In this document: positions 41,125 to 63,989 of the stretch, in pieces
Layout: the number at the start of each line of letters is the position of its first letter
How positions within the stretch are numbered: the first letter of the stretch is position 1
Source of the DNA: Platanthera guangdongensis
Taxonomy: Eukaryota > Streptophyta > Magnoliopsida > Asparagales > Orchidaceae
Reading direction: 5' to 3'
DNA: 64,000 nt
NCBI GenBank assembly: GCA_039583875.1
Contig: CM077165.1
Coordinates: 76,744,757 to 76,808,756 of the forward strand
Notes under the pieces: generated by a model
What the model was told of the DNA's origin: nothing
The model's database searches: none
The model's input: the letters and a program-made list of their open reading frames with translations, nothing else
Made by a program: the position numbers and the translations under genes

Positions 41125-43433
41125 TGTAACACCCCCTATCCATCACATAGCATATAACAGTAGGTCCGGCCGGGGCCCGACGCCGTATACCACAGACAGA
41201 CCGGGTGGTTACTTATGGAAACCATCCAACCAATCTCAACGTCCTACACAGAGCATTCTAGCGGAAGCAGTTTATAAAAGTTGCAATAAAGAACCCAGCA
41301 TTAGAGCATGAATGTCCACTAGTACAGAATAGGAATGTTATACAAAATACCCAAAATAAGCCTTAAGGCCTTACAAAATGTTTCACTTCCAATTACATGT
41401 TTTACAAACCACGGCACGCAGGCCGGTCACACATGAATAAAGCAGTAAACACTTCCAATTAGGCCTTCAAGGGCCGGCTTCGCATTCGGGCTTTAGCCCG
41501 CTATTGACCGCTTGGTCCAGCTGCACCTGCAAGCAACAAACCACCGCACGGTGGCAAAACAAGGCAACGGTCAGCTATGCTGACCAAATTTTAACGATCC
41601 CGCCCCCAACTCGGGGTGGCGATGCTCCTTCCCTGCATTTCAATAGCATAAGCGAGCAATGTATATATATAGCCATTTCATCACAGACGTTGGCTCGCAC
41701 GGTCACACGCCCCGTGCTCTCAGGGCACATTCTCGGTGAACCGGTCGATGTCACGTCAATTTAAGCCATCAACATACCGGACTCACCACCGCCACTTAGA
41801 CGGCCAAACCTATGAGCAATTTATCTTCTTGGCCTGGGTCACGACAATTTAAGTCATCAACCGCCAAAGACCCTAATCTATGCCAACGGTAAGTGTCACG
41901 TACCTTTAGGTCTCTTTAACCGAACGACATAGAATGGGTACGGTTCCATCTAACCCGTGCTCACATCGCAACGACAATTTAAGTCATATGCGCGGGTCAA
42001 ACTTCCACCGAGTCCCATTTCCATCACAAGTCACAAACCCGGTTATGTTCAAGTTGGCTCTCAAGACAACAAGTTGGCAAGATCTCGTATCCGCCCAGTT
42101 TTCCGGGCGTACCTTTGGGTTAGTCCCCAAGGCCCCCTGCTGCAATCTACCGCGTAGAAAACCCGAAAAACAACCAATAGCACGGAGTCTTCTCTGGCTT
42201 TACAATGCAACATCACCGATTCAGACCAACATGTCCGGGTAGGCTTCACACATCATGCCTATGTCCGTTCTCGCTTACGGACTCTAAACAACGGGGACTT
42301 CACATATCTACCCGAAGGAACGCCTCCAACTCTCCGCAAACTCGCGAGAGCAGGCTTCCTATGCAAAGAAAGAGAGCTACTCATGCTCAAGATGAGGATC
42401 GTTACCCTAGCGTTCCTCTTTGGCGCCATTGAAAAGTAATCGGATGAAAAGCACCGCACTAGCTTTGCCTCCGTGGATCCGGAGTCGGCTCGCGATTTGG
42501 AGCTTCGAAGCTCCTCCAATGGCGGGATCTAGCTCCTTCTTCCTCCCTTGGCTCTCTACTTTCTCTAAGGTTTTAGAAAGCTAACCACTCATGAAAAGTG
42601 AGGGTTTCTAAGTCCAATCCCGGGTATATCCCTTCAGGAACAACCCCCAGCCGTTGGATCTCAAAATAAGGAAACGAACGACTTTGATTCGGGACTGAAA
42701 TGCCCAATCTGGACCGAACACGGCCTGGCACACGCCCGTGTCCTGGGCCGTGTGCCTCATTCGCCGTCAAAATCGAATCACATGGAACCTCACACGGGTA
42801 TCGAACACGCCCGTGTTCGAGCTGACACGCCCGTGTTCCACCTGACACGACCGTGTGGCCGGCCGTGTACCCCATCATTTTTCCCCGAAATCAACCCGAG
42901 CACTGCACGGGTTCTAGGACACGCCCGTGTCCTTACCCGTGTCACCTCAACACGCATGGACCCCAGGCCGTGTACACGATCATGACACTCGACACTTCGT
43001 CGAGCGAAGATCGTCGACCTGATGACACGGCCTTGGACACGTCCGTGTCCTAGGCCGTGTGCCTTATCTCGACACATTGTCGACACCAAAGTGTCGACTT
43101 CCCGGGACGAGTGTCGACACGGGTCGACACGCCCTGCGACACGCCCGTGTCGCAGGCCGTGTGCCATGTCTCGACACTTCGTCGAGTGCAAAGTGTCGAC
43201 TTCGCGGCTAAGTGTCGACACGGGTCGACACGCCCTGCGACACGCCCGTGTCGCAGGCCGTGTGCCCAGTCTCGACACAATATCGAGACCAAAGTGTCGA
43301 CTTCCCAACTGAGTGTCGACACAGGCTTGACACGCCCTGGGACACGCCCGTGTCCCAGGCCGTGTGCCTGCTGCCAGAACCCAAACTGGCCCAAAACGTC
43401 CCCCTTTGCTCCTTTGAGTTTCGGGGCTTTACA
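41125..43433 (-). repeat. 3' LTR of element F (2309 bp)
   Basis: On the minus strand TGTAAAGCCCCG...GGGGGTGTTACA. The U3 end (42700-43380) is built from CACACGCCCGTGTC/GGCCGTGTGCC words and three copies of an about 102-bp unit starting at AAGTGTCGAC (43088, 43191, 43292). Long open frames here on both strands are due to these repeats. Confidence 0.9.
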
Positions 43434-46266
43434 ACTCTCCCCCTCTTAAAATAATTTCGTCCACGAAATTATATAAAGGAAAGACATGTACAAAACCAAA
43501 ATTTGTACCTGAGCGGAACAACTCCGGATACTCGTCAAGCATAGTCTGCTCTCGCTCCCAAGAGAGCTCCTCACGACCGCAATTGTCCCACCGGACTTTG
43601 ACCATCCTGATCTCTTTATTGCGTAGCCGCTTGACCTCCGAGTCCTCAATCCGCACGGGCTTGACCTCTGTCGTTAGCCCACTATCCACCGGCACTTGAT
43701 CAACCGCGATCACTTGCGTAGGCTCTTGCACCGCCTTCCGAAGCACCGAAATGTGGAATACATCATGTAAGGCACTTAGCTCCACTAAAAGCTTCAACCG
43801 ATAGGCCGCTTCACCAACTCGCTCCAGAACCTCAAACGGTCCAAGGTACCTCGGGCTTAGCTTTTTCAATCGCCGCACCCGCGAGACACCCTTGAACGGA
43901 TTGATCTTTAAGTATACATAATCGGCCACAGCGAACTCCATGTTACTGTGCTTGGCATTATAGTACTTTGCTTGCCGGTCCTGAGCGATAAGCAACCTCT
44001 CCCGAATGGTTCGCACCAAAGAAGTAGCACCCTCCACTTTCGATCGCTTATACAACCTTGACTCACCCGTTTCTAACCAAGACAACGGTGTGCGACATTT
44101 TCTACCATATAGGGCCTCGAAAGGCGCCATCTGAATACTCGCTTGGTAGCTATTGTTGTATGTGAACTCCACCAAATAAAGGTGGTCTTCCCATTGCTTT
44201 CCAAAATCCAAGACACACATGCGGAGCATGTCTTTCATAGTTCTATTGACCCTCTCGGTCTGCCCATCCGTTTGCGGATGGAAGGCTGTGCTGAACTTCA
44301 GCTTCGTTCCCAACATTTGCTGCACAAGCCTCCAATCATTGGACGTGAACCGCCCATCTCGGTCACTCACGATGCTGCGGGGCACCCCATGAAGCCGTAC
44401 TATGTTATCCACATAAAGCTTTGCCAATTTCTCCACCAGATAATCCTTCCTATGCGGAATAAAATGCGACACCTTCGTTAATCGATCAACGACCACCCAA
44501 ATGGCGTCGTTCCCCTTCTGCGACCTTGGCAAACCATGCACAAAGTCCATTGAGATGTCGTCAAATTTCCACTCCGGAATAGGCAAGGACTTAAGAAATC
44601 CTCCCGGCTTTTGGCACTCCGCCTTTACCAAGGCGCAAGTTTGGCACTTCGCTACGTATAGCGCCACATCCTTCTTCAAACCCGGCCACCAAAATAGTTT
44701 CTTCACATCACGGTACATCTTCGTGCTCCCCGGGTGAATCGAGTACTTGGTATGGTGTGCCTCGTACAACAACTCCACCCGCAAATTTCCCACACTTGGG
44801 ACGCACAAACGACCGTCTTTCCAAAGCAATCCGTCCTCCACGACGAATTGGGAATTTGACCCATCCAGAGCCTCTACCATGAACTGCTTCATATGAGCAT
44901 CCATATCCAAAGCCTGCCGAATACGATCAGCCAGGTCATATTGGACTTCAGTCCAATTCAGAACTGCTTCAGCACTTGATTGTCTATCAACACAAACAAT
45001 CTCCAACGCCTCCAACTCCCGCACCAACCGCTCATCATGCACCGATAGCCAATTGGCTTGAGCTGGTGCTCGGCGACTCAGCGCATCCGCAACAGCATTC
45101 CCTTTGCCAGGCACGCAGTGGATCTTGAATGTATAGTCCCCCAGGAACTCCATCCATCTACGCTGCCGCATATTCAGATCCTTCTGATCAATGAGATACT
45201 TCAGACTCTTGTGATCGGTGTAGATATCAATCTTCACACCGTACAAGTAGTGTCTCCACAGCTTCAAGGAAAAAATCACGGCAGCTAACTCCAAGTCATG
45301 GACCGGATAATTCCTTTCATGCACTTTTAGCTGTCTCGAGCCATAAGCTATTACATTTCCGTGTTGCAGTAGCACGCAACCCAAACCGCTGCCCGAAGCA
45401 TCGCTATAAATCTCATAGCCTTCGGTCCCACATGGCGAACTCAGCACAGGCGCCGTGGTCAACCGACACTTCAACTCCTCAAAAGCTCGTGCGCACTCCG
45501 GCATCCAAACGAACTTATGCTCCTTCCTCGTCAAAGTAGTGAGAGGTAACGCTATCCACGAGAAGTTCTCTACGAAGAGCCTATAATAGCCGGAAAGCCC
45601 CAGAAAACTCCGGACTTCCGCTACCGTAACAAGCTCAGGCCACTCCCGTATCGCAACAATCTTCGCCGGATCCACAGCAATACCCTCTCCACTTACTATA
45701 TGCCCGAGGAACGCTACTGAGGATAGCCAAAACTCGCACTTCGAGAACTTGGCATACAACTGATTTCTCCTTAGAGTCTCCAACACCAAATGAAGATGCT
45801 TGATGTGATCTTCCTCACTTTGCGAGTACACCAAAATATCGTTGATGAAGACGATCACGAAATGGTCCAAGTACTCCCTTAAAGTCCTGTTCATCAAATC
45901 CATGAACACTGACGGTGCATTAGTCAGCCCAAACGGCATGACCGTAAACTCATAATGCCTGTATCTCGTACTAAACGCTGTCTTTGGGATATCACTCTCC
46001 CTTATTCGCAGCTGATAGTACCCAGCCTTGAGATCTAACTTCGAGTAAACCGTCGACCCGACTAACTGATCAAAAAGATCATCAATCCGGGGGATCGGGT
46101 ACTTGTTCTTCTCAGTCAGCTTGTTGAGCTCCCGATAATCAATACATAGCCTCAAGCTTCCGTCCTTCTTCTTAACAAAGAGGACCGATGCGCTCCAAGG
46201 CGAAGAACTCGGGCGCACATACCCTTGCTCCAACAACTCTTGCAGTTGAACTTTCAACTCCGCCAT
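43429..46266 (-). pseudogene. Pol: RT, RNase H, integrase and chromodomain-like end (element F)
   Basis: A 945-residue open frame. RT has [15 protein letters not shown] and [13 protein letters not shown], but its catalytic box reads FINDILVYS where chromoviruses have F-I/V-D-D: the first Asp is Asn (codon 45841-45843), so polymerase activity is probably lost. RNase H follows ([34 protein letters not shown]). The integrase has an HHCC finger (ending CQTCALVK), Asp in SMDFVHGLP, Asp in SDRDGRF and Glu in GQTERVNRT. The C-terminus ([12 protein letters not shown], then a W-E-R-E stretch) is the chromodomain-like targeting module of Tekay elements. The frame is continuous with the protease upstream except for one TAA. 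Confidence 0.9.
43434..43452 (-). other. Polypurine tract of element F
   Basis: TTTTAAGAGGGGGAGAGT on the minus strand, directly before the 3' LTR. Confidence 0.85.
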
Positions 46267-46914
46267 TTTCTTAGGCGCTAGCCGATAAGGAGATTATGAC
46301 ACAGGTTTTGCACCTGCCTCTAGCTCGATTGTAAAATCTATCTCCCGCTGAGGCGGGGCTCCAGGAAGATCTGCGGGGAACATATCAGGGTATTCCGATA
46401 CCACTGAAATACAATCCAACGCGGGCTTCGGCTTTGCAACCTCCACTAGTGTAAAGAACAGTTCTGCACCGGCACGAACCGCCTTCACCACCTGAAGAGC
46501 AGACATCAACGTCTTGCTCGACCCCTTTAAGCCCGTAAAAGTCGTCTCACGACTCGCTCCCAGCTTAACTTCCTTACTACCGCAATCTATATGGGTCTGC
46601 TGCTCCGAGAGCCAGTCCATGCCAAATATGACGTCGAACTCCACCAACGGAAGTAAAGACGCCCGCAGGTCGAACTCCTGCTCCCCAATACGAATCTTAA
46701 CATTGCAGATCCTATCCGCTCGCATCGAACACCCATTGGGCAACAACACATCCAACTTATCCTTCGCCATCGAAGAAGGGACTCCGATGCGTGATATAAA
46801 TCCTTCGGACAAGAAGGAGTGTGAAGCTCCCGTATCGAAGAGTGCTCGTGACGGATTTTCACAAATCAATACAAATCCTAAACAAGCAGTGGTAAGGTAA
46901 CATGTGCATAACAA
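46267..46914 (-). pseudogene. Aspartic protease and RT lead-in (element F)
   Basis: In the same frame as pol, ending at a TAA (46294-46296) where chromoviruses continue from K-P-I-S into P-P-Y-R. The active site ALFDTGASHSFLS is intact, and the second block VIFGMDWL is present. The upstream link to gag (46915-46957) has several stops and a frame change, including after VVTGTF, so the polyprotein is broken there. Confidence 0.88.
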
Positions 46915-48321: not shown

Positions 48322-50222
48322 TGTAACACCCCCTATCCATCACATAGCATATAGAGTAGGTCCGGCCGGGGCCCGACGCCGTATGCCACAGACATACCGG
48401 GTGGTTACTTATGGAAACCATCCAACCAATCTCAACGTCCTACATAGAGCATTCTAGAGGAAGCAGTTTATAAAAGTTGCAATAAAAAACCCAGCATTAG
48501 AGCATGAATGTCCACTAGTACAAAATATGAATGTTATACAAAATACCCAAAATAAGCCTTAAGGCCTTACAAAATGTTTCACTTCCAATTACATGTTTTA
48601 CAAACCACGGCACGCAGGCCGGTCACACATGAATAAAGCAGTAAACACATCCAATTAGGCCTTCAAGGGCCGGCTTCGCATTCGGGCTTTAGCCCGCTAT
48701 TGACCGCTTGGTCCAGCTACACCTGCAAGCAACAAACCACCGCACGGTGGCAAAACAAGGCAACGGTCAGCTATGCTGACCAAATTATAACGATCCCGCC
48801 CCCAACTCGGGGCGGCGATGCTCCTTCCCTGCATTTCAATAGCATAAGCGAGCAATGTATATATATAGCCATTTCATCACAGACGTTGGCTCGCACGGCC
48901 ACACGCCCCGTGCTCTCAGGGCACATTCTCGGTGAACCGGTCGATGTCACGTCAATTTAAGCCATCGACATACCGGACTCACCACCACCACTTAGACGGC
49001 CAAACCTATGAGCAATTTGTCTTCTTGGCCTGGGTCACGACAATTTAAGTCATCAACCGCTAAAGACCCTAATCTATGCCAACGGTAAGTGCCACGTACC
49101 TTTAGGTCTCTTTAACCGAACGACATAAAACGGGTACGGTTCCATCTAACCCGTGCCTACATCGCAACGACAATTTAAGTCATATGTGCTGGTCAAACTT
49201 CCACCGAGTACCATTTCCATCACAAGTCACATAACCCGGTTATGTTCAAGTTGGCTCTCAAGCCACCAAGTTGGCAAGATATCGTATCCGCCCAGTTTTC
49301 CGGGTGCACCTTTGGGTTAGTCCCCAAGGCTCCCTGCTGCAATCTACCGCGTAGAAAACCCGAAAAACAACCAATAGCACGGAGTCTTCTCCGGCTTTAT
49401 GCAATGCAACATCACCGATCCAGACCAACATGTCCGGGTAGGCTTCACACATCATGCCTATGTCCGTTCTCGCTTACGGACTCTAAACAACGGGGACTTC
49501 ACATATCTACCCGAAGGAACGCCTCCAACTCTCCGCAAACTCACGAGAGCGGGCTTCCTATGTAAAGAAAGAGAGCTACTCATGCTCAAGATGAGGATCG
49601 TTACCCTAGCGTTCCTCTTTGGCTCCATTGAAAAGTAATCGGATGAAAAGCACCGCACTAGCTTTGCCTCCGTGGATCCAGAGTCGGCTCGCGATTTGGA
49701 GCTTCGAAGCTCCTCCAATGGCGGGATCTAGCTCCTTCTTCCTCCCTTGGCTCTCTACTTTCTCTAATGTTTTAGAAAGCTAACCACTCATGAAAAGTGA
49801 GGGTTTCTAAGTCCAATCCTGGGTATATCCCTTCAGGAACCACCCCCAGCCGTTGGATCTCAAAATAAGGAAACGAACGGCTTTGATTCGGGACTGAAAT
49901 GCCCAATCTAGACCGAACACGGCCTGGCACACGCCCGTGTCCTGGGCCGTGTGCCTCATTCGCCGTCAAAATCGAATCACCTGGAACCTCACACGGGTAT
50001 CGAACACGCCCGTGTTCGAGCTGACACTCCTGTGTTCCACCTGACACGGCCGTGTGGCCGGCCGTGTACCCCATCATTTTTCCCCGAAATCAACCCGAGC
50101 ACTACACGGGTTCTAGGACACGCCCGTGTCCTTAGCCATGTAACCTCAACACGCCTGGACCCCAGGCCGTGTACACGGTCTCGACACTCGACACTTCGTC
50201 GAGCGAAGATCGTCGACCTGAT
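48322..50222 (-). repeat. 5' LTR of element F, part left of element G
   Basis: Copy of 41125-43022 with scattered substitutions and a few indels. It ends with CTGAT (50218-50222), the target duplication of element G. Confidence 0.9.
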
Positions 50223-50948
50223 TGTTGGAACCGGCTTTCCGGTCCCTCCTAGAGTTCGAAACAGGATGCAGCCCACACGTACTCTCCCTGCGCTACCGTC
50301 CTGACGAGAGTCAGTGACCTGAAAACAGACCGAGGGGGTTCAGCTCGGAGGTCCCGCCTCTTACCCGGAAGAACTGTTAGTCTTCCCCTCCCTAGCCAGT
50401 GCTGAGCTAGGTGCCTGAGAGGAAAAAGTGGGAAGGTTCGACAACCCTTTCTCAGGCACCTTATCGGTCTATTTATAGGTTTCTGAATCTGTTCTGCAAA
50501 TATCACTCTTAAATCCACCTGAAAATACCAAAACACCCTGTGCTGGGTCTGCCTATAGCCAAACTCCGCTGTTCTGGAGAGCTATATGCAGGCCTCCAGG
50601 GGTAATAATGTAAAACTATCTGGGGCACGAAGGTAAAATCCCCCTTGTGGGTCAAAATAGGTAAAGGTATCTTTTTCCCCTTGCGGCGAGTGGGGAAGAT
50701 ACTGCCGGGCGAGACGGCCGCCATGCCCGTCTCGCCGCCTTTTCATCATGTGAGCTCTTTCGCCTTCTAGGATGATTTCTCCCACTAGAAGGTCTCGCCC
50801 ACTACAGAGGATCCCCCGTCTCGCCCACTAGAAGGTCTCTCCCACTCCAGAGGATCCCCCATCTCGCCTCCTATAGGTGGGCATCCTATACTCTCGCCAG
50901 TCCTCCCTTCGCCGGCTGGACCGTCTCTCGCGAGCCCCAGGTTGTACA
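50223..50948 (-). repeat. 3' LTR of element G (726 bp)
   Basis: Minus strand TGTACAACCTGG...GGTTCCAACA. TATA box CTATAAATAG at plus-strand 50469-50479. Tandem GGTCTCGCCCACTAGAAG words near 50760-50860. Confidence 0.92.
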
Positions 50949-51122
50949 CAATCCCCGCTCTTTTCGAGGTTTCCCTAACCTCGGAAAGATAAGTCCAACC
51001 GCGGCTCGCAATGCTAAGGTTCCTCTGTGGGAATCTTGGGTGGGCCCCTCCTCCCCGTACTGTCTATAAATATGAGGAAGCCTTCATTTGGAACTCTTTT
51101 TGCCTTCATCCTTTCTTCCGGA
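50949..51122 (-). other. Polypurine tract of element G and leader of the antisense gene
   Basis: The minus strand reads AAAAGAGCGGGGATTG directly before the 3' LTR, the plus-strand primer. The same 170 bases would serve as promoter for the plus-strand gene at 51123. Confidence 0.65.
51065..51072 (+). promoter_or_regulatory. TATA box of the second antisense gene
   Basis: TCTATAAATATGAGG, just right of the 3' LTR and pointing into the element. Confidence 0.55.
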
Positions 51123-52035
51123 ATGTCTCATAGTCAAAGTTTCCGTGAGCGTCTTGCGATTGTGCGAAAGCAGAACAAAGCCGGCACAGATGCCCTTTTC
51201 CCAGATCTGGGGCGTACTCCTCCCGCAGCCTCTCCGCCCTCTCACACCAAGAAAGCGAAAGCCGTCTGCGCTCCTCTCTCGGCGGGCGCAACCTCTTCGG
51301 CCATTCCGATAGACACCCCGTTCTCTTCCTCAGGGGGGAGACAGGTGATCCCGTTATTTTTCCTTTCCCCTGTCTCGCCTGTCTGATTATGCTTTCACAG
51401 GGAAGTCCTGCTGATTCGCTGGTGCCTGCCGATCCCCATGACAATGTAAGTCAAGTCCCTCAGCTCACAGACTCGCCCAAGGTGGCCTCCCCACCTCCCT
51501 CGCGGAGAGAAAACCTCTCGCGAGTGGTGGGGAATCCTCGAATCCCAAGAAAGATCTTTTTCCTTTTTCCTTCTCGCCTTTCGGTTGATTTGCCTTCTTC
51601 TACTCGGCTTACGCGGGCTCATCCTTGTTTGTAACCTTTCACTATTTTCGCAGGCATCCACTTTGATTCTGATGCTGAGGAAGCTCCCGCATCTCCCCCA
51701 CTCTCGCCCCTTCCTCATCCGAGCGAGATCGAGGACTACCTAGGTGATCCCATGGACCCTCTGGAGTTGAAACGGAGGACTGCCCGGATGTTCCGCAAAT
51801 ATACACACATAATCCGCGAGATGGAGCTCGAGAAGCAAGCCTCCGACCGACGCATGGAGTGGATGGAAGCAGATCATCACCGCCTTTCCGCGATGGTGGA
51901 GGCGGATGGGGTGCTGGACGGGACTGACCCCTAGGCTATACTGAACGAGACGGATGAACATCTCCGTCTCGCGCGCCGCGGCGTGATCGCCGCTCGCGCC
52001 TTTCATCTTCCTGGCCGCCCGCCATGCGCGGGAGG
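51123..52035 (+). pseudogene. Second antisense gene of element G, probably spliced, unknown function
   Basis: A TATAAATA at 51065-51072 lies 58 bp before ATG 51123 (MSHSQSFRERLAIVRKQN). Coding-like sequence runs to 51344, resumes at 51401 after a GTGATC...TTTCACAG intron (frame joins exactly), and ends at 51445 before GTAAGT. A matching TATTTTCGCAG at 51653 opens the next exon (FDSDAEEAPASPPLSPLPHP, then MFRKYTHIIREMELEKQASD), but this join is off by one base, so the copy has an indel or a different site. A TAG at 51932 is followed by more in-frame codons (NETDEHLRLARRGVIAARA) up to GGGAG/GTAAGG near 52035. No family recognised. Confidence 0.5.
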
Positions 52036-52447
52036 TAAGGATGGCCGCTGGCGGTGGGTGCGGAACTAGGCAGTCTCAGCCCGTCTCGCCTTCTCCGGAT
52101 CTCGCTTTTACTAATGTTGTTGTTTTATTACTGCTATGTTATACAAACTTATTCAGACGAGACGCCCCCTTCTGCGGGACGGTTTCATTTTTTTGGCTCC
52201 GGGTCATGCAATGGTTGTATCGTGCCGTCTTTTCATTATTGCAGTCTTTTCATTAGATATTATTTTATTAACCCTGTCATGATGGCTTGCCTCGAAAGGG
52301 TGTCTGCGGCGCCTCCGTCTCTTGAGTTCTAGAGAGAGAGTGAGAGAGGAAGTGAAATTAAGAGAGAGAGAGAGGGGGGGAGAACGAGGCGCCGGGACGT
52401 CCCCTCATGTCCCGCCGCCTTACTTTCCCGCCCTTTTCTCTACCTCT

Positions 52448-52455
52448 TATAAATA
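52448..52455 (+). promoter_or_regulatory. TATA box of the antisense gene
   Basis: CTTATAAATACC, about 140 bp before the ATG at 52587, preceded by a GA-rich tract (52330-52382) as in many plant core promoters. It is independent of the LTR promoter and points the opposite way. Confidence 0.65.
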
Positions 52456-52586
52456 CCTTCAACCCCCACCACTGCCCCTCACTATTCTAAACTGTTCTTT
52501 TGACCCCGGCTCCCGTTTCTCCTTCATCGTCTCGCGCCTCTCTTTCTGGGCCATCTCTTTCTGCTTTTGCCGCTTTCTCGCCAATC

Positions 52587-54503
52587 ATGGGGAAAAAGAA
52601 GGTCGAAGAGGGCGAGGGCCGCAGCCGTTGCGGGAAACGTTTCGTCGACCATGACTTCCCTCTCGGCCGACTGCCGGAGGAAGACCACGCCCGCTTTGCT
52701 CGCGAGTACCTCTCCGATTGCTACCCGTCTCGCCCGCCTAAGGTGGGCGAGTGCATCAACACCTTTTATTCCAATGAGCTGGCTTTCCCGGTCTCGCACT
52801 TTGAGGCGGGACTGAGGCTCCCCCTCTGGCCGGAGGTTAAATTGGTGCTGAAGTATTTTGGGGTCGTCCCGGCCCAGTTCAACCCCAATGCTATCTCTAT
52901 GCTGGTCGCCTTCGCCTGCTACCTGAGGCGAGAGCGCATCGAGTTCAGTCTAACCGCCTTCCGCAAGCTGTTTGTCTACCACGCCAAGGACGACGGCATT
53001 TCTTACTTCACCGGTCAAGGCCTCAAAGTATGCGAGACCCCGAACAAGAACCACCATTGGTTGACACGGTTCGTCTTCATACGCGGGGACCTAGGAGGCA
53101 TCCCCCTCGCCCCGGTATCCCCCGCCGAGTGCTATTATGATACCCCCAAGGTGGGGGGTGCCGAAAAAGAACTCTGCGACTTCTTCGTGGGAAAGAATTT
53201 TGAAGTCCAATACCTGCGGCGAGACCTGGATTCGCTGCCCGCCGTTTTTCCGGGCGAAGGTAAGCCTCTATTCCCTTCTGTCCCTGCAAAAGCTTTTTTC
53301 TTCCTCCCACTAACTGTTACCTTATCTAGGAGAAAGGACCGTCCCCGTCAATCCCCCCTACCAGAGCAATCGAGCTCTCGCTTTAGCGAATATGGCGGCG
53401 GAGGCTGCGAAAGATACGCTGACCCCTGTCGCCAAGAAGAGGCCTGCGGGCGAAGGTACCTCTCGCCTCAGCCCCAAGAAGAAGAAAAAGACTGTGTCCT
53501 TCGAGAAGGAAAAGCCGGCCAAGAGAAGAGAAGAGCTCGCGGGGTCTCTCTCACCTATCACCCTATCGTCTCCCTCGCCTCCACGTCAGCCCGCCTCGCC
53601 AACCCGCGAGACGATTTCTGCAGAACCAGCCGCCCACGGTCGTGCTCAGCCCCCTCAGCCTCCTCCTGGCGAAATTGGCTCATCCAGCCGCCCGGCTCCC
53701 GCCTCGCACCCTAACTACAATATGGGGCCCGTGACGGAGGATGACGCCGGCGAGCCGGTTCTAATATGGGAGTAGGATTCCAACCGAGTGTCGGTGTCCA
53801 CCCTTCTCCCTTCCTGGAAGGAACAGGACCATCCCACCAGCCACGCCTTTTCACTAGGCTTCGGGCTTTATGGCGGTCTTGGCTCCGAACCTGCTGACAA
53901 CGAGGCCTCGCGGGACCTCATTCTGAAAAGCGTCCACTCGCAGTTTCGCTCCCTGGAGCTCGCGCATCGCGTCTCGCGCCGTCTTGTCTTCAACAACAGG
54001 AAATGGAAAGAGGCGGAGACCGGTCTCGCCGCGGAGCGAGAGAAGTCTACTGACTTGGAGAAGCGGTTGAATGTTGCTGACAAACTCCTTGCACAGAGCC
54101 AGGGTGGCGTGGTAAGTTTCCTTATCTTTGCCTCGCCCGCCTCGCCCTTGCCCCTTATGGTCTCTTACTTTCCCCCCTCCGGCAGGATGCCGAGACGGCG
54201 AATAGGATGCGCTCGCGTATCGAGGAGCTGGAGGGAGAAAACAAGAAGCTGAAAGCCGAGAACCTTCGCCTTCAGAGCAGCGCGACGCCCCCCACGGATC
54301 AGTTTCCCGTTTCTTCCCGATATTCCGTGGATGAGGTGGAGGCCATCTGCCGGGACTCAAACATCAAGACAGCGGAGGTCGTCCTTAAGATGATGAAGGA
54401 GCTGGGAGTGGTGCGTGCTGATGCGGAGACGGTGACCGTCCGCGACCTAGTCCCGCGTTTGTTCGACGAGTCGGACGGCAGCGCCTCCTCTGACAATGAG
54501 TAG
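52587..54503 (+). CDS. Three-exon antisense gene of element G (PF04195-like plus coiled coil)
   Basis: Exons 52587-53259, 53330-54111 and 54186-54503 join to 1773 bases, 590 residues plus stop. Intron 1 (70 bp) has GTAAGC...TATCTAG and intron 2 (74 bp) GTAAGT...CCGGCAG; removing them joins three different frames exactly. Residues about 25-210 (VSHFEAGLRLPLWPEVKLVL, FGVVPAQFNPNAISML, HHWLTRFVFIRG) resemble the plant family named transposase (putative), gypsy type, PF04195. A basic linker (KKRPAGEGTSRLSPKKKKK) looks like a nuclear signal. The C-terminal third (SLELAHRV, AAEREKSTDLEKRLNVADKL, SRIEELEGENKKLKAENLR) is coiled coil. One in-frame TAG (53773-53775, codon 373) interrupts this copy. A TATA box lies 140 bp upstream. 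Function unknown. Confidence 0.75.
53260..53329 (+). other. Intron 1 of the antisense gene (70 bp)
   Basis: GAAG/GTAAGCC at the start and a T-rich stretch then TTATCTAG/GAG at the end. Exon codons G-E and E-R-T join in phase across it. Confidence 0.75.
54112..54185 (+). other. Intron 2 of the antisense gene (74 bp)
   Basis: GCGTG/GTAAGTTTCC and CCTCCGGCAG/GATGCC. It is phase 0 and joins the coiled-coil codons of exons 2 and 3. Confidence 0.75.
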
Positions 54504-55151
54504 TGCACCATCCCTCTCAATGTTTTTCTCTCGCCCTCATATTTTTGTTTAACACTTATGATCCTGGTTCCCTTTCTTAAAGGGAGAGCGAGGTGTCTCT
54601 GCCTCCTTAATTTTTTGTTTAAAACTCTTTATATGCTGACGGCCGCTTCCCCTTTTGGGGTGCTGTGCAATAGTTATTTAGGAGTTACTTTATTTTAATT
54701 ACCAGTTTGATTTTTCACCCTCTCGCTTAGCTACCAGCCCAAGGTGTATGGCTATTTTTTGGGACGCTGTTTAATCACTACTTTTATTGCCTTCCATTTC
54801 GCTGAAAACTGGCGCGAGGCCCCCCCCCTTTATCGCTTTTTACCCGTCTTGATTACCTCCGTCGGCGCTGCACTGCGAGATCATCTCGCCACAAAATTTC
54901 TGGGTCCAGTCGTCTCGCCAGTCGGTTTCGGCCATTTCAGCTCACTTGATCCTGGGACGGGGAAAACCCTCCCGCCCGTGGCGAGACCCCCTATGGCGAG
55001 TGTCGGCCAGGGACCTTCTTCCCTGGCCCTATTCCTGGTCACTCTCTGTTTCAGGGACTACCCCCCTCTTGCTGAGTCATGGATTTTTCTCCACGCGAAT
55101 TCTTACCCTTAGACTTGTTTCCCCAAATGAGTACCATCCTCCCGAAACACC
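54504..55151. other. Spacer between the antisense gene and the 86-bp array
   Basis: No supported gene. Contains TCTCGCC words like those in the LTR and, near 55130, a first degenerate satellite edge (CCTCAACCACCGAGTGAGCC). Confidence 0.6.
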
Positions 55152-57200
55152 CTCAACCACCGAGTGAGCCTACAGCCCTGCCAGCTAGATGGGAGCCTGG
55201 TCAGCGGGTCTGCTCGGGGTCTCCTTTCCAAAACACCACCAACCACCGAGTGAGCCTACAGCCCTGCCAGCTAGATGGGAGCCTGGTCAGCGGGTCTGCT
55301 CAGGGTCTCCTTTCCAAAACACCACCAACCACCGAGTGAGCCTACAGCCCTGCCAGCTAGATGGGAGCCTGGTCAGCGGGTCTGCTCGGGGTCTCCTCTC
55401 CAAAACCCCACCAACCACCGAGTGAGCCTACAGCCCTGCCAGCTAGATGGGAGCCTGGTCCGCGGGTCTGCTCGGGGTCTCCTCTCCAAAACTCCACCAA
55501 CCACCGAGTGAGCCTACAGCCCTGCCAGCTAGATGGGAGCCTGGTCAGCGGGTCTGCTCGGGGTCTCCTCTCCAAAACACCACCAACCACCGAGTGAGCC
55601 TACAGCCCTGCCAGCTAGATGGGAGCCTGGTCAGCGGGTCTGCTCGGGGTCTCCTCTCCAAAACTCCGCCAACCACCGAGTGAGCCTACAGCCCTGCCAG
55701 CTAGATGGGAGCCTGGTCAGCGGGTCTGCTCGGGGTCTCCCCTCCAAAACTCCACCAACCACCGAGTGAGCCTACAGCCCTGCCAGCTAGATGGGAGCCT
55801 GGTCAGCGGGTCTGCTCGGGGTCTCCCCTCCAAAACTCCACCAACCACCGAGAGAGCCTACAGCCCTGCCAGCTAGATGGGATCCTGGTAATCGGGTCTG
55901 CTCGGGGTCTCCTCTCCAAAACACCGCCAACCACCGAGTGAGCCTACAGCCCTGCCAGCTAGATGGGAGCCTGGTCAGCGGGTCTGCTCGGGGTCTCCTC
56001 TCCAAAACACCGCCAACCACCGAGTGAGCCTACAGCCCTGCCAGCTAGATGGGAGCCTGGTCAGCGGGTCTGCTCGGGGTCTCCTCTCCAAAACACCGCC
56101 AACCACCGAGTGAGCCTACAGCCCTGCCAGCTAGATGGGAGCCTGGTCAGCGGGTCTGCTCGGGGTCTCCTCTCCAAAACACCGCCAACCACCGAGTGAG
56201 CCTACAGCCCTGCCAGCTAGATGGGAGCCTGGTCAGCGGGTCTGCTCGGGGTCTCCTCTCCAAAACTCCACCGACCACCGAGTGAGCCTACAGCCCTGCC
56301 AGCTAGATGGGAGCCTGTTCAGCGGGTCTGCTCGGGGTCTCCCCTCCAAAACTCCACCAACCACCGAGAGAGCCTACAGCCCTGCCAGCTAGATGGGAGC
56401 CTGGTCAGCGGGTCTGCTCGGGGTCTCCTCTCCAAAACACCGCCAACCACCGAGTGAGCCTACAGCCCTGCCAGCTAGATGGGAGCCTGGTCAGCAGGTC
56501 TGCTCGGGGTCTCCTCTCCAAAACACCGCCAACCACCGAGTGAGCCTACAGCCCTGCCAGCTAGATGGGAGCCTGGTCAGCGGGTCTGCTCGGGGTCTCC
56601 TCTCCAAAACTCCACCGACCACCGAGTGAGCCTACAGCCCTGCCAACTAGATGGGAGCCTGGTCAGCGGGTCTGCTCGGGGTCTCCCCTCCAAAACTCCA
56701 CCAACCACCGAGAGAGCCTACAGCCCTGCCAGCTAGATGGGAGCCTGGTCAGCGGGTCTGCTCGGGGTCTCCTCTCCAAAACACCGCCAACCACCGAGTG
56801 AGCCTACAGCCCTGCCAGCTAGATGGGAGCCTGGTCAGCGGGTCTGCTCGGGGTCTCCTCTCCAAAACACCGCCAACCACCGAGTGAGCCTACAACCCTG
56901 CCAGCTAGATGGGAGCCTGGTCAGCGGGTCTGCTCGGGGTCTCCCTTCCAACACTCTGCCAACCACCGATTGAGCCTACAGCCCTGCCAGCTAGATGGGA
57001 GCCTGGTCAGCGGGTCTGCTCGGGGTCTCCCTTCCAACACTCTGCCAACCACCGAGTGAGCCTACAGCCCTGCCAGCTAGATGGGAGCCTGGTCAGCGGG
57101 TCTGCTCGGGGTCTCCCCTCCAAAACTCTGCCAACCACCGAGTGAGCCTACAGCCCTGCCAGCTAGATGGGAGCCTGGTCAGCGGGTCTGCTCGGGGTTG
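55152..57200. repeat. 86-bp satellite array, about 24 units, inside element G
   Basis: The unit starts ACCACCGAGTGAGCCTACAG and includes AGCTAGATGGGAGCCTGGTC and GGTCTGCTCGGGGTCTCC. Units are nearly identical, with a few linked variants (AACACCGCCA, AACTCCACCA, AACTCTGCCA endings) that occur in runs, including a repeated block of five units. Each unit yields 78-residue shadow frames that are not genes. It lies in the non-coding 3' part of the element, where Tat elements often carry tandem repeats. Confidence 0.95.
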
Positions 57201-57320
57201 TTTATACAAATCACCTCGCCTCTGGTGCCTCACAGGGGTCACCCACACTTCCACCAAAAGAGCACATCGGGATGATAAGCATTTCCAAATAACAATAGAA
57301 AGATACTGTGAAGTAGAGTG

Positions 57321-58538
57321 CTACGGGTAAAATCTCTTCAAATCATCCCCACTCCGGGCTCGCTCGAGAGATACCCCGTCCACATTCTGGAGGTGGTACC
57401 CTCCTGACTTTAAGACTTCTTTTATTACAAAAGGACCCTCCCAATTTGGGTTAAGTTTTCCTACAGAGGCTCCTCTACCTGCCGCGTCCACCTTTTTTAG
57501 GACCAAATCTCCTTTCGCAAACTGTTTAACCCTTACATGCTTGTCGAAGTATCTCGCCATCCGGCGCTTGACTTCCTCCTGCCGGACCACTGCTAAATCT
57601 CGGAGCTCCTCCACGAGATCCAACGAAAGCCTCTGCTCTTCTTCGTTCTCTGTTCTCCATCCTTCGGCTCCTTCCCTTGCAACCACTACTCTCGGTGATG
57701 CGACCTCGAACTCGACAGGTATGACGGCCTCTGAGCCGTGAGAGAGCTTAAACGGGGTTTCTCCCGTGGCTGTGTTTGGTGTGGTTCTTAAGGCCCACAG
57801 TACTGAAGGTAATTGCTCCACCCAGCTTCCTCTTAAATTCTCCACCTTTTTCTTCAACAGATTGACAATGACCTTATTGGCCGCTTCGACCTGTCCGTTA
57901 CTCCGCGGATGATGAACAGAGGCAAAGCGGAGATCTATCCCCAAACGAATGCAGAAATCCACGAACTCCCTGCTTGCAAACTGGGGTCCGTTATCCGTCA
58001 CAATGGCTAGGGGCAACCCATGCCGGCAGACGATCTCCCCCCAAACGAAGTTCTTGACCACCTGCGAGGTTACCTTAGCCAATGCTTTCACCTCCAGCCA
58101 TTTTGAAAAGTAATCCACCATGACTATCAGGAACTTCCTTTGGCCACTTGCTTGGGGAAAGGGGCCCACCAGATCTAGTCCCCATATAGCGAATGGCCAG
58201 GGAGCTGTAATGGTCCGCAACCTCTGGGCCGGGAGGAGCTGAAGAGGGGCGAACTCCTGGCACTTTTGGCACTTTTTCGCAAATTCCTCCGCATCTCTCC
58301 TAAGGGTAGGCCAAAAGTACCCCTGCCTCAGCACCCTCCCCTCTAAAGTCCGGCTCCCCGAGTGACTTCCACATTCTCCGGAGTGGATCTCTTGTAGAAC
58401 CCTAGGAGCCTCTTCCTCCGACACACATCTGGCCAGCAATCCTGTCAAGGTCTTGCGATATAAAACTCCATCCTTCAATAGGTAGTATGCCGACTTGTAT
58501 CTGGTGCGCTTCTTGTCGAGCTCCGTCGCGGGTAACTG
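57321..58538 (-). CDS. Integrase of element G
   Basis: An open frame following the TGA at 58539. Its first Met (58478) reads MKDGVLYRK. The HHCC finger (EIHSGECGSHSG, then CQKCQEFA) is followed by the catalytic core with Asp in WGLDLVGPFP, Asp in VTDNGPQF and Glu in NGQVEAANKVI, so all three DDE residues are present. The C-terminal part (KQFAKGDLVLKKV, NWEGPFVIKEVLKSGGYHL) is the usual GPY/F-type module. There is no chromodomain, as expected for Tat. It ends at LKRFYP just before the 86-bp array. Confidence 0.9.
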   Translation of the reverse strand, partial: QLPATELDKKRTRYKSAYYLLKDGVLYRKTLTGLLARCVSEEEAPRVLQEIHSGECGSHSGSRTLEGRVLRQGYFWPTLRRDAEEFAKKCQKCQEFAPLQLLPAQRLRTITAPWPFAIWGLDLVGPFPQASGQRKFLIVMVDYFSKWLEVKALAKVTSQVVKNFVWGEIVCRHGLPLAIVTDNGPQFASREFVDFCIRLGIDLRFASVHHPRSNGQVEAANKVIVNLLKKKVENLRGSWVEQLPSVLWALRTTPNTATGETPFKLSHGSEAVIPVEFEVASPRVVVAREGAEGWRTENEEEQRLSLDLVEELRDLAVVRQEEVKRRMARYFDKHVRVKQFAKGDLVLKKVDAAGRGASVGKLNPNWEGPFVIKEVLKSGGYHLQNVDGVSLERARSGDDLKRFYP

Positions 58539-59015
58539 TCATGATGCCAAAAAGGTGATAAAGGGGTCCATCCACGACCTTTGTTGGCATACTTCCATAA
58601 GTTCTCCTTCCTTTATGGACGGTCTGAAGAGTTCCGTCACCGTTCCCCCGGCCCGAGGGCCGTGCTTGGCGAGTTGGTCGGCCTGGGTGCTCTCCTCTCT
58701 CGGGACGTGTTGAATTGAGAAACTTCGAAACTGCCCTATGATGTCCTTGACCTTTCCCAAATACAGCTGGAGGGCTGGCTCCCTTGCCTCGAACTCCCCT
58801 TTGATCTGACCTGCCACCACCATGGAGTCCGTCGAGGCCTCAATGTCTTGTATGCCCAGCTCCCGGGCTAACCTCAGCCCTGCGATGACCGCCTCATATT
58901 CTGCCTGGTTGTTGGTGACTGCGAAATGAATCTTCAAGGCTTGCTCAATCTGGGTCCCCTCCGGACTGGTCAAGACCACTCCCCCCCCCAAAAGAGTTTC
59001 TTCCCGACGCTCCAT
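58539..59015 (-). CDS. Second RNase H domain (Tat-type) of element G
   Basis: Continues WKMLVDGASG of the previous frame after the homopolymer shift: GVVLTSPEGTQIEQALKIHF, NNQAEYEAVIAGLRLAREL, ASTDSMVVAGQIKGEF and EESTQADQLAKHG. The Asp, Glu, Asp and final Asp of an RNase HI fold are all in place. A duplicated RNase H located between the normal one and integrase is the hallmark of Tat elements. The frame ends at a TGA (58539-58541), after which integrase continues in the same frame, so this stop splits an otherwise single frame. Confidence 0.85.
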   Translation of the reverse strand: MERREETLLGGGVVLTSPEGTQIEQALKIHFAVTNNQAEYEAVIAGLRLARELGIQDIEASTDSMVVAGQIKGEFEAREPALQLYLGKVKDIIGQFRSFSIQHVPREESTQADQLAKHGPRAGGTVTELFRPSIKEGELMEVCQQRSWMDPFITFLAS

Positions 59016-60895
59016 CCACTAACATTTTCCAAGCTGCTCGAGGGGGCGTCTCCGCTTCTCGGACCTCTACCACATAGTCTGCTAAGAAATCGGCCACCGC
59101 CTGCGCCTTGATGGCGAGCCGTGGAACGAAGACGAGATCAAATTTGCTGAGCTCTATTGACCATTTGGCCAGCCTCCCCGAATGCTCTACCCCGCTCAAG
59201 ATGTTACGGAGAGGGTGGTCAGTCACCACTCGGATGGAGTGTGCCTGGAAATACGGTCTGAGCTTTCGGGACGAGACGATGAGGGCAAATGCTAACTTTT
59301 CCAGGATGGGGTACCCGAGTTCCGCCTTCTTCAGGACCCTGCTCACGTAATAGATTGGGAATTGTTTATTTCCTTCTTCTCGCACAAGAACCGAGCTTAC
59401 CGCCTCCATCCCTACCCCCAAATATAGGAACAGGTCTTCGGCTTCCCTTGGTCCCTGGAGTAAAGGCGTCTGGGTAAGCTGCAGCTTTATGGCCTGAAAA
59501 GCCGTCTCGCACTCCGCGGTCCACTCGAAACCCTTACCCCCTCGCAGCGTTCGAAAGAAGGGCGAGCATCTCTCCCCCGCCCGGGAAAGGAACCTGCTCA
59601 GCCCGGCCAACTTTCCTGTGAGACGCTGGACTTCCTTCACATTCCGATGGGACTCCAGTTCTAGGATTGCTCTCACTTTTTCGGGGTTGGGCTCCACCCC
59701 AGATGGAGTGAGTAGATGCCCCAGAAATCTTCCTCTGCTAGCGCCGAAAACACACTTCAGGGGGTTGAGCCTGATTTTATACTCCCTCAGGGTTTTAAAG
59801 GTTTCCTCCAGATCTAGGACATGAGCCCCGAGGTCCTTACTTTTGATCATCAAGTCGTCTACGTAAACCTCGAGATTCCTTCCTCTCTGTTCTCGGAAAA
59901 TTCGATCCATCATCCTTTGATAGGTTGCGCCCGCATTTTTCAAACCGAAGGGCATCATATTAAAGCAGAAGCACCCATCCTCCGTGACGAAGGTGACGTC
60001 CTTAACGTCCGGAGGATGCATGCGTATTTGATGGTACCCAGAAAACGCGTCCAAGAAACTCATAAAAGGGAAACCGACGGCTGAGTCAACCAGCGCGTCG
60101 ATTCGGGGCAGTGGATAACAATCCTTAGGGCATGCTTTATTTAAAAGAGAAAAATCTACGCACATCCTCCACTTACCCTCCCCTTTTGGACCATTACAAC
60201 ATTACTCACCCACCCCGGATACTTACAGGCGGACACAAACCCCGCCTTAAGTAATTTTTCCACTTCCTCTCTAATAGGTCCGGCCATCTTCGAGGCGATG
60301 GCCCTCTTCTTCTGTTGTATGGGGCGGTTGTTTGGGTCTAGATTGAGGCGGTGACAGGCGACGTCTGCATCGACCCCCGGCATATCTGCGGCGCTCCATG
60401 CGAAGACGTCGATAATGCTTTGCACGCAAGTTCTGACCTTCTCTTGGTCCTCCGGGTTGAGCTCGCCACTGATTTTTATCCTTTCTACTCGGCCTTCCTT
60501 GGTGTGTATTTCTACCTCCAGGACCTCCACCGCAGCTTTCAGCCTGGATGGCTCCTCCTCTCCCTCCTGTTCTGCCTGCTTGCCCTGCTGCTGGGCTTTG
60601 CCTTCTATGTTGGCCACCATTCCCTCTTCCCCCGGCTGCTCCGCCTTCCACTTGCTCGCGTCCTCCTTTTCTTGCCAGGAGGCTCTTCTCTTCTCTGGAC
60701 GGGTCCCCTCCCCGGGTGATCCGCCCAACTCTTCCGTCTTCCTCTTCTCCTTCCTCCCTTCCTCTTCTTTTTGCCCCACTTCCCTTGCCGCTTCCGTCTC
60801 TCCTCCCTCCGCTCCAGCCATTTCTAGCTCCTCCCCCATACCCTTGTTCCTTGCCACTTCTCCCTCACCTCCAGCTCCTCCCCCTTCCCTTTCTT
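58990..60895 (-). pseudogene. Reverse transcriptase and first RNase H of element G, frameshifted
   Basis: The N-terminal part (60156 to about 60890) reads IDVFAWSAADMPGVDADVAC, KKRAIASKMAGPIREEVEKL and KYPGWVSNVVMVQKG, then shifts frame in a GGGGAGGG run near 60185. From 60165 the second frame holds RT: MCVDFSLLNKACPKDCYPLP, FLDAFSGYHQI, FCFNMMPFGLKNAGATYQ and the catalytic VYVDDLMIKS (59851-59868). RNase H follows with FLYLGVGMEAVSSVLV where others have an Asp, and VVTDHPLRNIL. The frame breaks again in a run of nine C (plus strand 58981-58989) at the start of the second RNase H. RT catalytic residues are intact. Confidence 0.88.
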
Positions 60896-62005
60896 CTACC
60901 ATCTCCGTCTCCCGAACTCCTCTCCTGCCACTCCTGGCTCCCCCGCAATGCCTCCAACCACTACTACTTCCCCCTCTTCTCCAGCACCTTCCTCCTCCCT
61001 TTCTTCTGTCATCCCCGTCTCCCCGAACTTCTCTTCCGCCATCGCTGGCTCCCCCGCGATGCCTCCAACCGCTACTGCTTCTCCCTCTCCTCCAGCACCT
61101 TCCTCTCCTCGCTCTTCTTCGCCTCCCTGCTCTTGTTGCAATCGCTCCATCCTCTTTTCCAGCTCCTCTGCGTCCCCCTGCCAGGAGATTGTGTTTACCG
61201 CCGTCACGTAGCATTCCCTTGCTGCCTTCGGATCTCCTCGTACCCTGATTTGAGTACCTCCAGAATTCAGCTTCAAGCACTGGTGAAACGACGACGGAAC
61301 GCATCTGAAAGCGCTGATCAAGGGGCGCCCAAAGATAGCATTGTAGCTACTGGGGGCATCCACTATGACAAAACGGCAATTTCTGGATAGCCCTCCCAAA
61401 GTTACCTGGAGTCCTACACCCCCCTCGACCTCTTTCCTTTCTCCTGAGAATCCAAACAATGGTCCATCCGCTGCCAGTACCCTCCGTGCCTCCACCCTCA
61501 TTGCATTGAACGCCTTCTTAAAAATCACGTTCACCGAGCTCCCATTGTCGACTAGGATCCGCGACAGCGTGAAGTTCTCGATGGCGGTCCGTATCACCAG
61601 CGCGTCACAAAAAGGGTCCTCATGGTCGGGCATGTCTTTTCTTGAAAACGTAATCTTTTCATCTGGAGGAGGGGATTGCGACGTCGAGGCGACACTTCGG
61701 CGGTACATAGTGTGAAGGCTCGCCTTTCGGGCCGCCTCTATCCCCACCCCCCCATTGATCACCCCAACCAGCCCGCGATCCCCTTCATCCGCACGGTCCA
61801 CACACCGATCCTCTTCTCCTGTAATTGTTACTTCCTCTATCCGCACCGGCCTTGGCTGTTCCCCAGCTCCTCGAGTCCTCCTTAACTCCAAGAAATCCGG
61901 GCAGGTAGTCGTTGCGTGACCTTCCTCCTCGTGGAAGTCACAGTATGGCAACGCCACCCCCCCTCCGGTCTCCCCTCTTGAGGGTTCCTCCTTCTCCCTG
62001 CTCAT
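60896..62005 (-). CDS. Aspartic protease region of element G
   Basis: A 369-residue frame. It starts with a Cys/His cluster (CDFHEEEGHATTTC, the usual Tat knuckle variant at the Gag-protease border). The retropepsin-like domain carries RILVDNGSSVNVIF (Tat elements usually read D-x-G-S-S) and IFGRPLISAF. After it, Gly/Glu-rich tandem repeats (EEGAGEEGEVVVVGG and variants, about 120 bp per unit) lead to the frame's end at 60896. The real polyprotein continues in a second frame from within these repeats, so a frameshift lies at about 60890. Relative to gag the frame is also shifted. Confidence 0.75.
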   Translation of the reverse strand: MSREKEEPSRGETGGGVALPYCDFHEEEGHATTTCPDFLELRRTRGAGEQPRPVRIEEVTITGEEDRCVDRADEGDRGLVGVINGGVGIEAARKASLHTMYRRSVASTSQSPPPDEKITFSRKDMPDHEDPFCDALVIRTAIENFTLSRILVDNGSSVNVIFKKAFNAMRVEARRVLAADGPLFGFSGERKEVEGGVGLQVTLGGLSRNCRFVIVDAPSSYNAIFGRPLISAFRCVPSSFHQCLKLNSGGTQIRVRGDPKAARECYVTAVNTISWQGDAEELEKRMERLQQEQGGEEERGEEGAGGEGEAVAVGGIAGEPAMAEEKFGETGMTEEREEEGAGEEGEVVVVGGIAGEPGVAGEEFGRRRW

Positions 62006-62058
62006 GCTCCTCTTCCTCTTTCCCGGCCCCTTCCTCTACCTCGGCCGATGGCCATGGC

Positions 62059-63207
62059 CTACTGCGGAGGAGGTAGGGGTGGTCTATGACCATACCCCCA
62101 CCCCATCTGATTGAACCTTCCCGGTCCTCCCTGTTGATTCCTTCCTCCTTGGGGAAATCCTCTACCTTGCCCGGGGGCAGTCCCCCCCTGCTGCCTCCAC
62201 CCCAGCTCCGGATACGCCGGAGCCCTCGGCTCTTCCCTTCTCCTCGCTTCGTGTTGCCTCCCTCCTGTCTCCCTCGATTCTACCTCAGTGAGCCTTGCCA
62301 GCTTCTTTGCGAAGGCCGGGTTTGCTGCCTCCATTGCTATTTCCTTGGCCGCCTTCTTTATCAAGCCCTCGAAGGAAAGCGGCGCCTTCCGGGTGAGGCT
62401 CATTTTGAAGAACCCTTCTCGCAGTCCCACTGTGAAAGCCATCTGGAGGGCAAAACCCGACACCTCCTGTATATCCAGAATTTCCTCCTAGAAACTATCT
62501 ACGTATTGAGCCAGTGATTCATCCACCTTCTGCTTAATCAAGAAGATCGACTCTGGGTTCTTCTTCCTTTTCTTAGATGTGGAGAACCGGAGCTGGAAGC
62601 TCCTACTCAAGTCCTCGAAGCAATATATCGATCCTGCCGGGAGTTGGTGGAACCAGTCCCTAGCCTTGTCCTTCAGAGTGATCGCAAAGAGGCGGCACTT
62701 AAACGCATCCGTCATGGGCCTGATCGAGACAGCGTCTTCGAACCATTGCAAGTGATGGAGGGGATCGTCCTTCCCCACGTAGTAATTCATCTCGGGCTCT
62801 CGGAAGCCCTCCGGGACCGGAGCGGACAGGACTAGCTCGCAAAAAGGGGACCCCCGCGCCGCCGGTCTCGCCACCCCTACTCGCGCGACGACCTCCCCTG
62901 GCGCGATGGTACTCACCGTACTTGGGAACAGCTCCCTTCCCGCCATGTCCATCCCGGTCCCTTCCAACATCACCTCCTTTCCCGGCCTTCTCCCCGGGGC
63001 GTCTTCTCCGACTCGCGCCGAGACGAGTTCCTCCTGAGTCGCGAGAGCTGGCACTGTGGGCAGTGGAGTTGAACAGTCTCCCTGCCGCGAGATACCTTGC
63101 AATAGATCCATGATCCCCTTGATCGAAGCCAGGAACTCCGTTCTTCCTACAAATCCCCCCTGATTATCTGACTCCCCTCCTTCTCCTTCTCCATGATCTC
63201 CCGCCAT
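62059..63207 (-). pseudogene. Gag of Tat-lineage element, one in-frame stop
   Basis: From ATG 63207 (MAGDHGEG) one frame runs to 62059 with a TAG at 62488-62490. After a low-complexity N-terminus comes the Gag core: PFCELVLSAPVPEGFREPEM, GKDDPLHHLQWFEDAV, RLFAITLKDKARDWFHQLP, SRSFQLRF and IKQKVDESLAQYV. These match the Tat Gag pattern of L-K-x-x-A-R-x-W-F and a later K-Q-x-x-x-E-S-L. Past the stop it continues with a helical part (KKAAKEIAMEAANPAF) and an Arg/Gly/Gln-rich tail in place of classic zinc knuckles. Protease is in another frame. Confidence 0.85.
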
Positions 63208-63243
63208 GTTGGTTGCTCAAGGTTCTTCTCTGAGGGCTGCGCT

Positions 63244-63260
63244 CCACGCTCACCGCACCA
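63244..63260 (-). other. Primer binding site of element G, unusual type
   Basis: Three bases after the LTR end the minus strand reads TGGTGCGGTGAGCGTGG. It has the TGG start of a primer site, but it is not the tRNA-Asp or initiator-Met site used by the other elements here. I do not recognise the matching tRNA. Confidence 0.6.
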
Positions 63261-63263
63261 AAA

Positions 63264-63989
63264 TGTTGGAACCGGCTTTCCGGTCCCTCCTAGAGTTCGA
63301 AACAGGATGCAGCCCACACGTACTCTCCCTGCGCTACCGTCCTGACGAGAGTCAGCGACCTGAAAACAGACCGAGGGGGTTCAGCTCGGAGGTCCCGCCT
63401 CTTACCCGGAAGAACTGTTAGTCTTCCCCTCCCTAGCCAGTGCTGAGCTAGGTGCCTGAGAGGAAAAAGTGGGAAGGTTCGACAACCCTTTCTCAGGCAC
63501 CTTATCGGTCTATTTATAGGTTTCTGAATCTGTTCTGCAAATATCACTCTTAAATCCACCTGAAAATACCAAAACACCCTGTGCTGGGTCTGCCTATAGC
63601 CAAACTCCGCTGTTCTGGAGAGCTATATGGAGGCCTCCAGGGGTAATAATGTAAAACTATCTGGGGCACGAAGGTAAAATCCCCCTTGTGGGTCAAAATA
63701 GGTAAAGGTATCTTTTTCCCCTTGCGGCGAGTGGGGAAGATACTGCCGGGCGAGACGGCCGCCATGCCCGTCTCGCCGCCTTTTCGTCATGTGAGCTCTT
63801 TCGCCTTCTAGGATGATTTCGCCCACTAGAAGGTCTCGCCCACTCCAGAGGATCCCCTGTCTCGCCCACTAGAAGGTCTCGCCCACTCCAGAGGATCCCC
63901 CATCTCGCCTCCTGTAGGTGGGCATCCTATACTCTCGCCAGTCCTCCCTTCGCCGGCTGGACCATCTCTCGCGAGCCCCAGGTTGTACA
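63264..63989 (-). repeat. 5' LTR of element G (726 bp)
   Basis: Partner of 50223-50948 with the TATA box at 63511-63518 (minus strand). It starts gag-pol transcription toward lower coordinates. Confidence 0.92.

Follow-up and report, generated by a model that had tools for sequence, protein, structure and literature searches.

A putatively spliced antisense Transposase_28 gene in a Retand-type Tat retrotransposon of the orchid Platanthera guangdongensis

A stretch of 64,000 nucleotides from the orchid Platanthera guangdongensis (assembly GCA_039583875.1, contig CM077165.1, positions 76,744,757 to 76,808,756; the whole stretch is called the window below) carries a long terminal repeat (LTR) retrotransposon of the Retand type, and between its pol region and its 3′ LTR, on the strand opposite gag-pol, lies a gene with three exons and two candidate introns. 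We consider it likely that this is a spliced antisense accessory gene of the Transposase_28 (PF04195) type that has a promoter of its own and encodes a nuclear coiled-coil protein, and whose introns have been kept by virtue of their antisense orientation. An antisense Transposase_28 open reading frame (ORF) is an established feature of Retand elements; the putative introns are the new part, and both their sequence signals and homology with orchid proteins support them well.

Gene structure and conservation across the junctions

The gene is read on the plus strand from 52587 to 54503. Exon 1 (52587–53259; sequence and Pfam) begins with the ATG and encodes the Transposase_28 domain, exon 2 (53330–54111; sequence and alignment) encodes a basic linker, a conserved segment and the start of a coiled coil, and exon 3 (54186–54503; sequence, Pfam and alignment) encodes the remaining coiled coil, a C-terminal segment and the stop codon. 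Between them lie candidate intron 1 (53260–53329, 70 nt, phase 1, GTAAGC...TCTAG), indicated by its sequence signals and by inserts at the same place in two relatives, and candidate intron 2 (54112–54185, 74 nt, phase 0, GTAAGT...GGCAG), indicated by its signals and by alignment across the junction. A preliminary description of this DNA had placed the exon ends at 53259/53330 and 54111/54186, with two short GT-AG introns opposite gag-pol, and the sequence bears this out. Its statement that three different frames are joined was mistaken: the introns total 144 nt, a multiple of three, so that exons 1 and 3 share one genomic frame, only exon 2 is shifted and two frames are joined. The gene of 591 codons that it described holds as a join of 1,773 nt, giving 590 sense-or-stop positions and a final stop, but not as an intact frame, because one stop inside it, an in-frame TAG at codon 373, interrupts the gene in this copy.

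The signals at the candidate introns suggest that they are spliceosomal, combining GT-AG ends with pyrimidine richness and branch-like motifs. Hexamers of the form GTAAG[TC] occur only twice in the 1,917-nt gene region, once at each donor, and branch-like CTAAC and CTTAC motifs lie 17 and 19 nt upstream of the acceptors of introns 1 and 2 respectively, with other, weaker-placed motifs also present. The T content of both introns exceeds that of all 1,560 overlapping 70-nt exon windows; the pyrimidine content of intron 1 is equalled by 0.26% of these and that of intron 2 by none. The longest open run of each exon was reached in 0 of 300 shuffles for exon 1, 56 of 300 for exon 2 and 21 of 300 for exon 3. 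As the DNA is GC-rich and shuffles often match exons 2 and 3, open frames alone are weak evidence, and the case for a gene therefore rests on homology.

Protein searches returned at least nine relatives, of which Platanthera zijinensis accounts for eight and P. guangdongensis for one; two of these searches scored only approximately 8000 candidates sharing most words, and the absence of other plants is uninformative. The joined product aligns end to end with P0001 (61% identity over 97%) and P0002 (58% over 99%), the best among the matches listed, and the next relatives follow at 37% over 99% and 41% over 85%. The frames joined in the preliminary description run on without an insertion at junction 1 in six of the nine relatives (P0001–P0005 and P0007; P0008 is unalignable there) and at junction 2 in four (P0001, P0002, P0003 and P0005). 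In P0006 and P0009, which are distant relatives, 22 and 24 extra residues are found exactly at the junction-1 codon, which would correspond to GT-AG intervals of 66 and 72 nt, and the only other insertion of at least four residues in these two proteins between positions 10 and 245 is one of nine residues at position 237. The simplest reading of the two inserts is that the gene predictor retained an intron that was open by chance. We also considered their composition as evidence for an intron (F, L, I, M and V make up 0.43 and 0.52 of the inserts compared with 0.24 and 0.26 overall) and set it aside as weak; the highest 22-residue windows for these residues reach 0.50 and 0.55, and are possibly the inserts themselves. 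Of the other relatives at junction 2, P0007 and P0008 do not extend to it and P0009 ends close by; P0006 has diverged, and the P0004 model is disrupted there. As a separate observation, the P0007 model from P. zijinensis is named as an IAA-amino acid hydrolase but continues into the central part of a protein of the Transposase_28 type, and is probably a mis-joined gene or one hit by an element.

The domain architecture outlined in the preliminary description was recovered in each of its parts. A profile search placed PF04195 in exon 1 (E 2.7e-9; 37.5 bits against a cut-off of 26.2), and the same family scored above its cut-off in all six relatives scanned (P0001, P0002, P0003, P0005, P0006 and P0009). 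Transposase_28 may be related to the plant mobile domain. The linker is basic, as it is in the relatives, and includes PKKKKK, which resembles a nuclear signal. For the coiled coil, the evidence comprises long helices at residues 436–500 and 505–534 of a P0002 model of low overall confidence, which flank junction 2 (P0002 residues 503/504), together with matches of exon 3 to Pfam coiled-coil families, all of them below threshold. An HBZ-type bZIP domain was not found in exon 3, where bZIP_1 scored 15.0 bits against a cut-off of 27.6.

Proposed expression and alternative readings

We propose that transcription of the gene by the host polymerase starts at an internal promoter close to 52448, in the interval that separates the gene from the 3′ LTR, and runs in the direction opposite to the genomic RNA. 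This promoter is presumed from a TATA-like site, TATAAATA (52448–52455, plus strand), 139 nt upstream of the ATG, in keeping with the TATA box first described; the octamer occurs five times on the plus strand and four times on the minus strand of the window. The leader upstream of P0001 has two short segments resembling translated 52442–52497 in the same order (TGYKYPLPP against TSYKYLQPP, then APHFTPLF against APHYSKLF); conservation of the TATA region is possible on this basis, but with an E value of 24 for each match we did not count it. The spliceosome would then remove the two short introns to yield an mRNA for a protein of approximately 590 residues, with an N-terminal Transposase_28 domain, the basic linker and a C-terminal coiled coil. 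Such a protein may enter the nucleus by means of the linker, would probably dimerize through the coiled coil and may act on the DNA or RNA of the element, its likely role being nuclear regulation of the element. Beyond the anatomy, this mechanism is inferred from the parallels offered by Grande gene23 (PMC7264820) and by HBZ and APH, antisense genes that are spliced (PMC10186651).

The genomic RNA would hold the complements of the introns only, and because these complements lack splice signals the introns would be copied intact through retrotransposition. The preliminary description had gone further, stating that an intron in a retroelement survives only if it is antisense, which is too strong: Ogre elements retain a sense intron through partial splicing, only a subset of their transcripts being spliced (PMC6317226).

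Several observations weigh against a spliced antisense gene. The relatives are known as proteins alone, introns in their DNA being indicated only by the two gene models with inserts, and the six relatives without an insertion at junction 1 would fit a spliced-out intron or no intron alike. At junction 2, favourable evidence comes from only four of the nine relatives, and P0004 is disrupted at that very place. None of the three poly(A) hexamers tried (AATAAA, AATAAT and AATGAA) occurs in 54504–55060. A model of exon 1 (best of five, mean pLDDT 79.3) had no match among solved or viral folds, and thus none that would support DNA binding; residues for DNA binding have been predicted in the Transposase_28 domain in a survey of Retand elements, which did not test them (PMC11963269). 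Lastly, the TAG at 53773–53775 lies in frame 336 nt upstream of the last junction. Among further sequences, pattern searches for DNA copies gave 87 matches in viral contigs and 42 in genome contigs, of which none was confirmed, and the 64-kb window holds no second copy of the gene, the best tblastn match beyond the gene itself having an E value of 0.27.

The protein runs straight through the position of this TAG in the relatives that align there. We therefore read it as a nonsense codon and rejected a third intron around it. With this stop and a broken gag-pol, the host copy is damaged. A stop this far upstream of the last junction commonly leads to nonsense-mediated decay, for which the spliced message of this copy would be a candidate.

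This damage is shared ground with the first of three alternatives, that the family gene is a single continuous frame and that the present copy, already decaying, gained two intron-like insertions of 70 and 74 bp. The lack of extra residues at the junctions in most of the relatives' proteins would fit such a history as well. However, both insertions would then need to have arrived with GTAAG donors, AG acceptors, a T-rich pyrimidine composition and branch-like motifs, and the inserts of nearly equal length at the very same codon in P0006 and P0009 would be left aside; we regard this alternative as improbable. Slightly less probable still is that the antisense transcript matters and not the protein, by pairing with the genomic RNA and so leading to small-RNA silencing or to interference with reverse transcription, the coding frame being residual. 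Such antisense roles have been discussed for LTR elements (PMC7264820 and PMC12786077), and a full protein could be made from this copy only by read-through, but among diverged relatives conservation extends across the entire protein, with PF04195 kept, and the two roles could coexist. Least probable, and in our view very unlikely, is the recent capture of an intron-bearing plant gene in antisense, since, although its TATA-like site, exons and introns resemble those of an ordinary plant gene, the matches listed hold close relatives only and no separate host gene, and only two of the clusters examined in the Retand survey lack an antisense TRP28 ORF (PMC11963269), which argues that the gene is an old resident.

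The host element

The element that carries the gene occupies 50223–63989 on the minus strand, as delimited by LTR match, end sequences, nesting and domains. Its 3′ LTR (50223–50948) and 5′ LTR (63264–63989), both on the minus strand and identified by comparison with each other, are 726 bp long as judged from their end sequences and differ at nine of 727 compared positions, and the 5-bp flank CTGAT is present at both ends of the element. The gag-pol region (57321–63216, minus strand; open stretches and Pfam) contains gag, reverse transcriptase (RT), RNase H, RVT_3 and integrase in several broken frames. Along the element the order is gag (Retrotrans_gag), RT, RNase H, RVT_3, integrase, an array of 86-bp repeats, the antisense gene and the 3′ LTR. 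RVT_3 is a second RNase H-like domain (76.2 bits against a Pfam cut-off of 21.6) placed between the RT-RNase H and integrase stretches. Of the seven gag-pol open stretches scanned, three had no Pfam match at E 0.01, and the scan revealed no protease in any of the seven. The tandem array between pol and the antisense gene comprises 24 copies of the 86-bp repeat (55137–57198; Tandem Repeats Finder).

These data identify the element, by its domain order, as Retand-type within the Tat clade of Ty3/gypsy, in agreement with the Tat lineage named in the preliminary description. The position of the second RNase H, the antisense PF04195 ORF between pol and the 3′ LTR, and a long pol–3′ LTR region with tandem repeats are all features of Retand; Ogre and Retand share the same domain order, with the second RNase H between RNase H and integrase (PMC6317226). 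From the coordinates, the pol–3′ LTR span is approximately 6.4 kb (50949–57320) and the internal region approximately 12.3 kb, and these lengths and that of the LTR all fall inside the ranges of the Retand survey, which gives 2,933–6,566 bp for the pol–3′ LTR region (PMC11963269).

The host element is itself nested inside another repeat, its left flank (50000–50222) matching 42801–43023 at 95%. A 111-bp tandem duplication of 2.3 copies (60856–61105) is located between gag and RT, where the frames scanned gave no Pfam family. Elsewhere in the window there are arrays of approximately 20-bp and 31-bp repeats (at approximately 6487–7400 and 7999–8526 respectively) and an open pol-like frame of 954 residues belonging to another retroelement (43429–46293, minus strand).

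Comparison with known systems

Of the Retand clusters with recent activity, 97% have antisense TRP28 ORFs (PMC11963269), whose products are uncharacterized and catalogued as open frames. Should these genes be spliced as proposed here, full-length proteins of this type would have been split or missed. Counts that depend on long frames, such as Transposase_28 in 23% of Retand elements among extra frames of 250 codons or more (PMC6317226), would then be underestimates for technical reasons. We tentatively suggest, as something that could well prove otherwise, that the antisense Transposase_28 gene of Retand is generally multi-exon, that the separately counted antisense ORFs (TRP28, and coiled-coil or Smc-like) belong as exons to a single spliced gene, and that the introns of this gene have come through repeated cycles of reverse transcription as they are readable only opposite the genomic RNA. 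In that case the introns would durably record which strand expresses the gene. Intron conservation in a retroelement would provide natural evidence for use of the antisense strand as a real gene, in parallel with the spliced antisense genes of the human T-cell leukaemia viruses (HTLV) (PMC10186651).

No description of introns in an antisense Transposase_28 gene was found among the titles and abstract starts listed in a literature search and in selected passages; the search did not extend to the original reports of Grande gene23 and of extra ORFs (Gomez-Orte 2013; Steinbauerova 2011), and an earlier report is possible. A rice MIKKI retrotransposon transcript with introns was considered and rejected as a precedent, being spliced between nested elements and not from this gene (PMC5599236). 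Plant LTR elements are generally intronless, with Ogre and EVADE named as notable exceptions in December 2025 (PMC12786077).

The closest counterparts are the Retand TRP28 ORFs themselves (Vicient 2025, PMC11963269), which agree with the present gene in domain, orientation, location between pol and the 3′ LTR, adjacent tandem repeats and region lengths. They are described as ORFs, whereas we propose three exons and two introns; that survey has no occurrence of 'intron' and two of 'splic', both in the reference list. Maize Grande gene23 also lies antisense in the 3′ internal part of its element and has a promoter of its own and a nuclear product (PMC7264820); a TATA-like sequence and a predicted nuclear product would be the counterparts here. 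This comparison covers orientation, position, promoter and product; PMC7264820 mentions 'intron' 0 times and calls for a search for antisense and spliced transcripts. Ogre, also of the Tat clade, is intron-bearing, but its intron is in sense orientation, and its extra ORFs encode a plant mobile domain in 57% of elements and not Transposase_28 (PMC6317226).

Outside plants, HBZ of HTLV-1 and related genes are antisense retroelement genes with spliced transcripts and, in the case of HBZ, a nuclear product, where here we infer both; their transcription starts in the 3′ LTR, in contrast with the TATA-like site approximately 1.5 kb outside the LTR in the present element, and the proteins are unrelated (PMC10186651). 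The homing endonuclease gene on the antisense strand of the Didymium L2066 group I intron is a further example of an opposite-strand gene in a mobile element with a short spliceosomal intron; the element class, protein and host all differ from ours, and there removal of the intron in vivo has been shown (PMC9548176).
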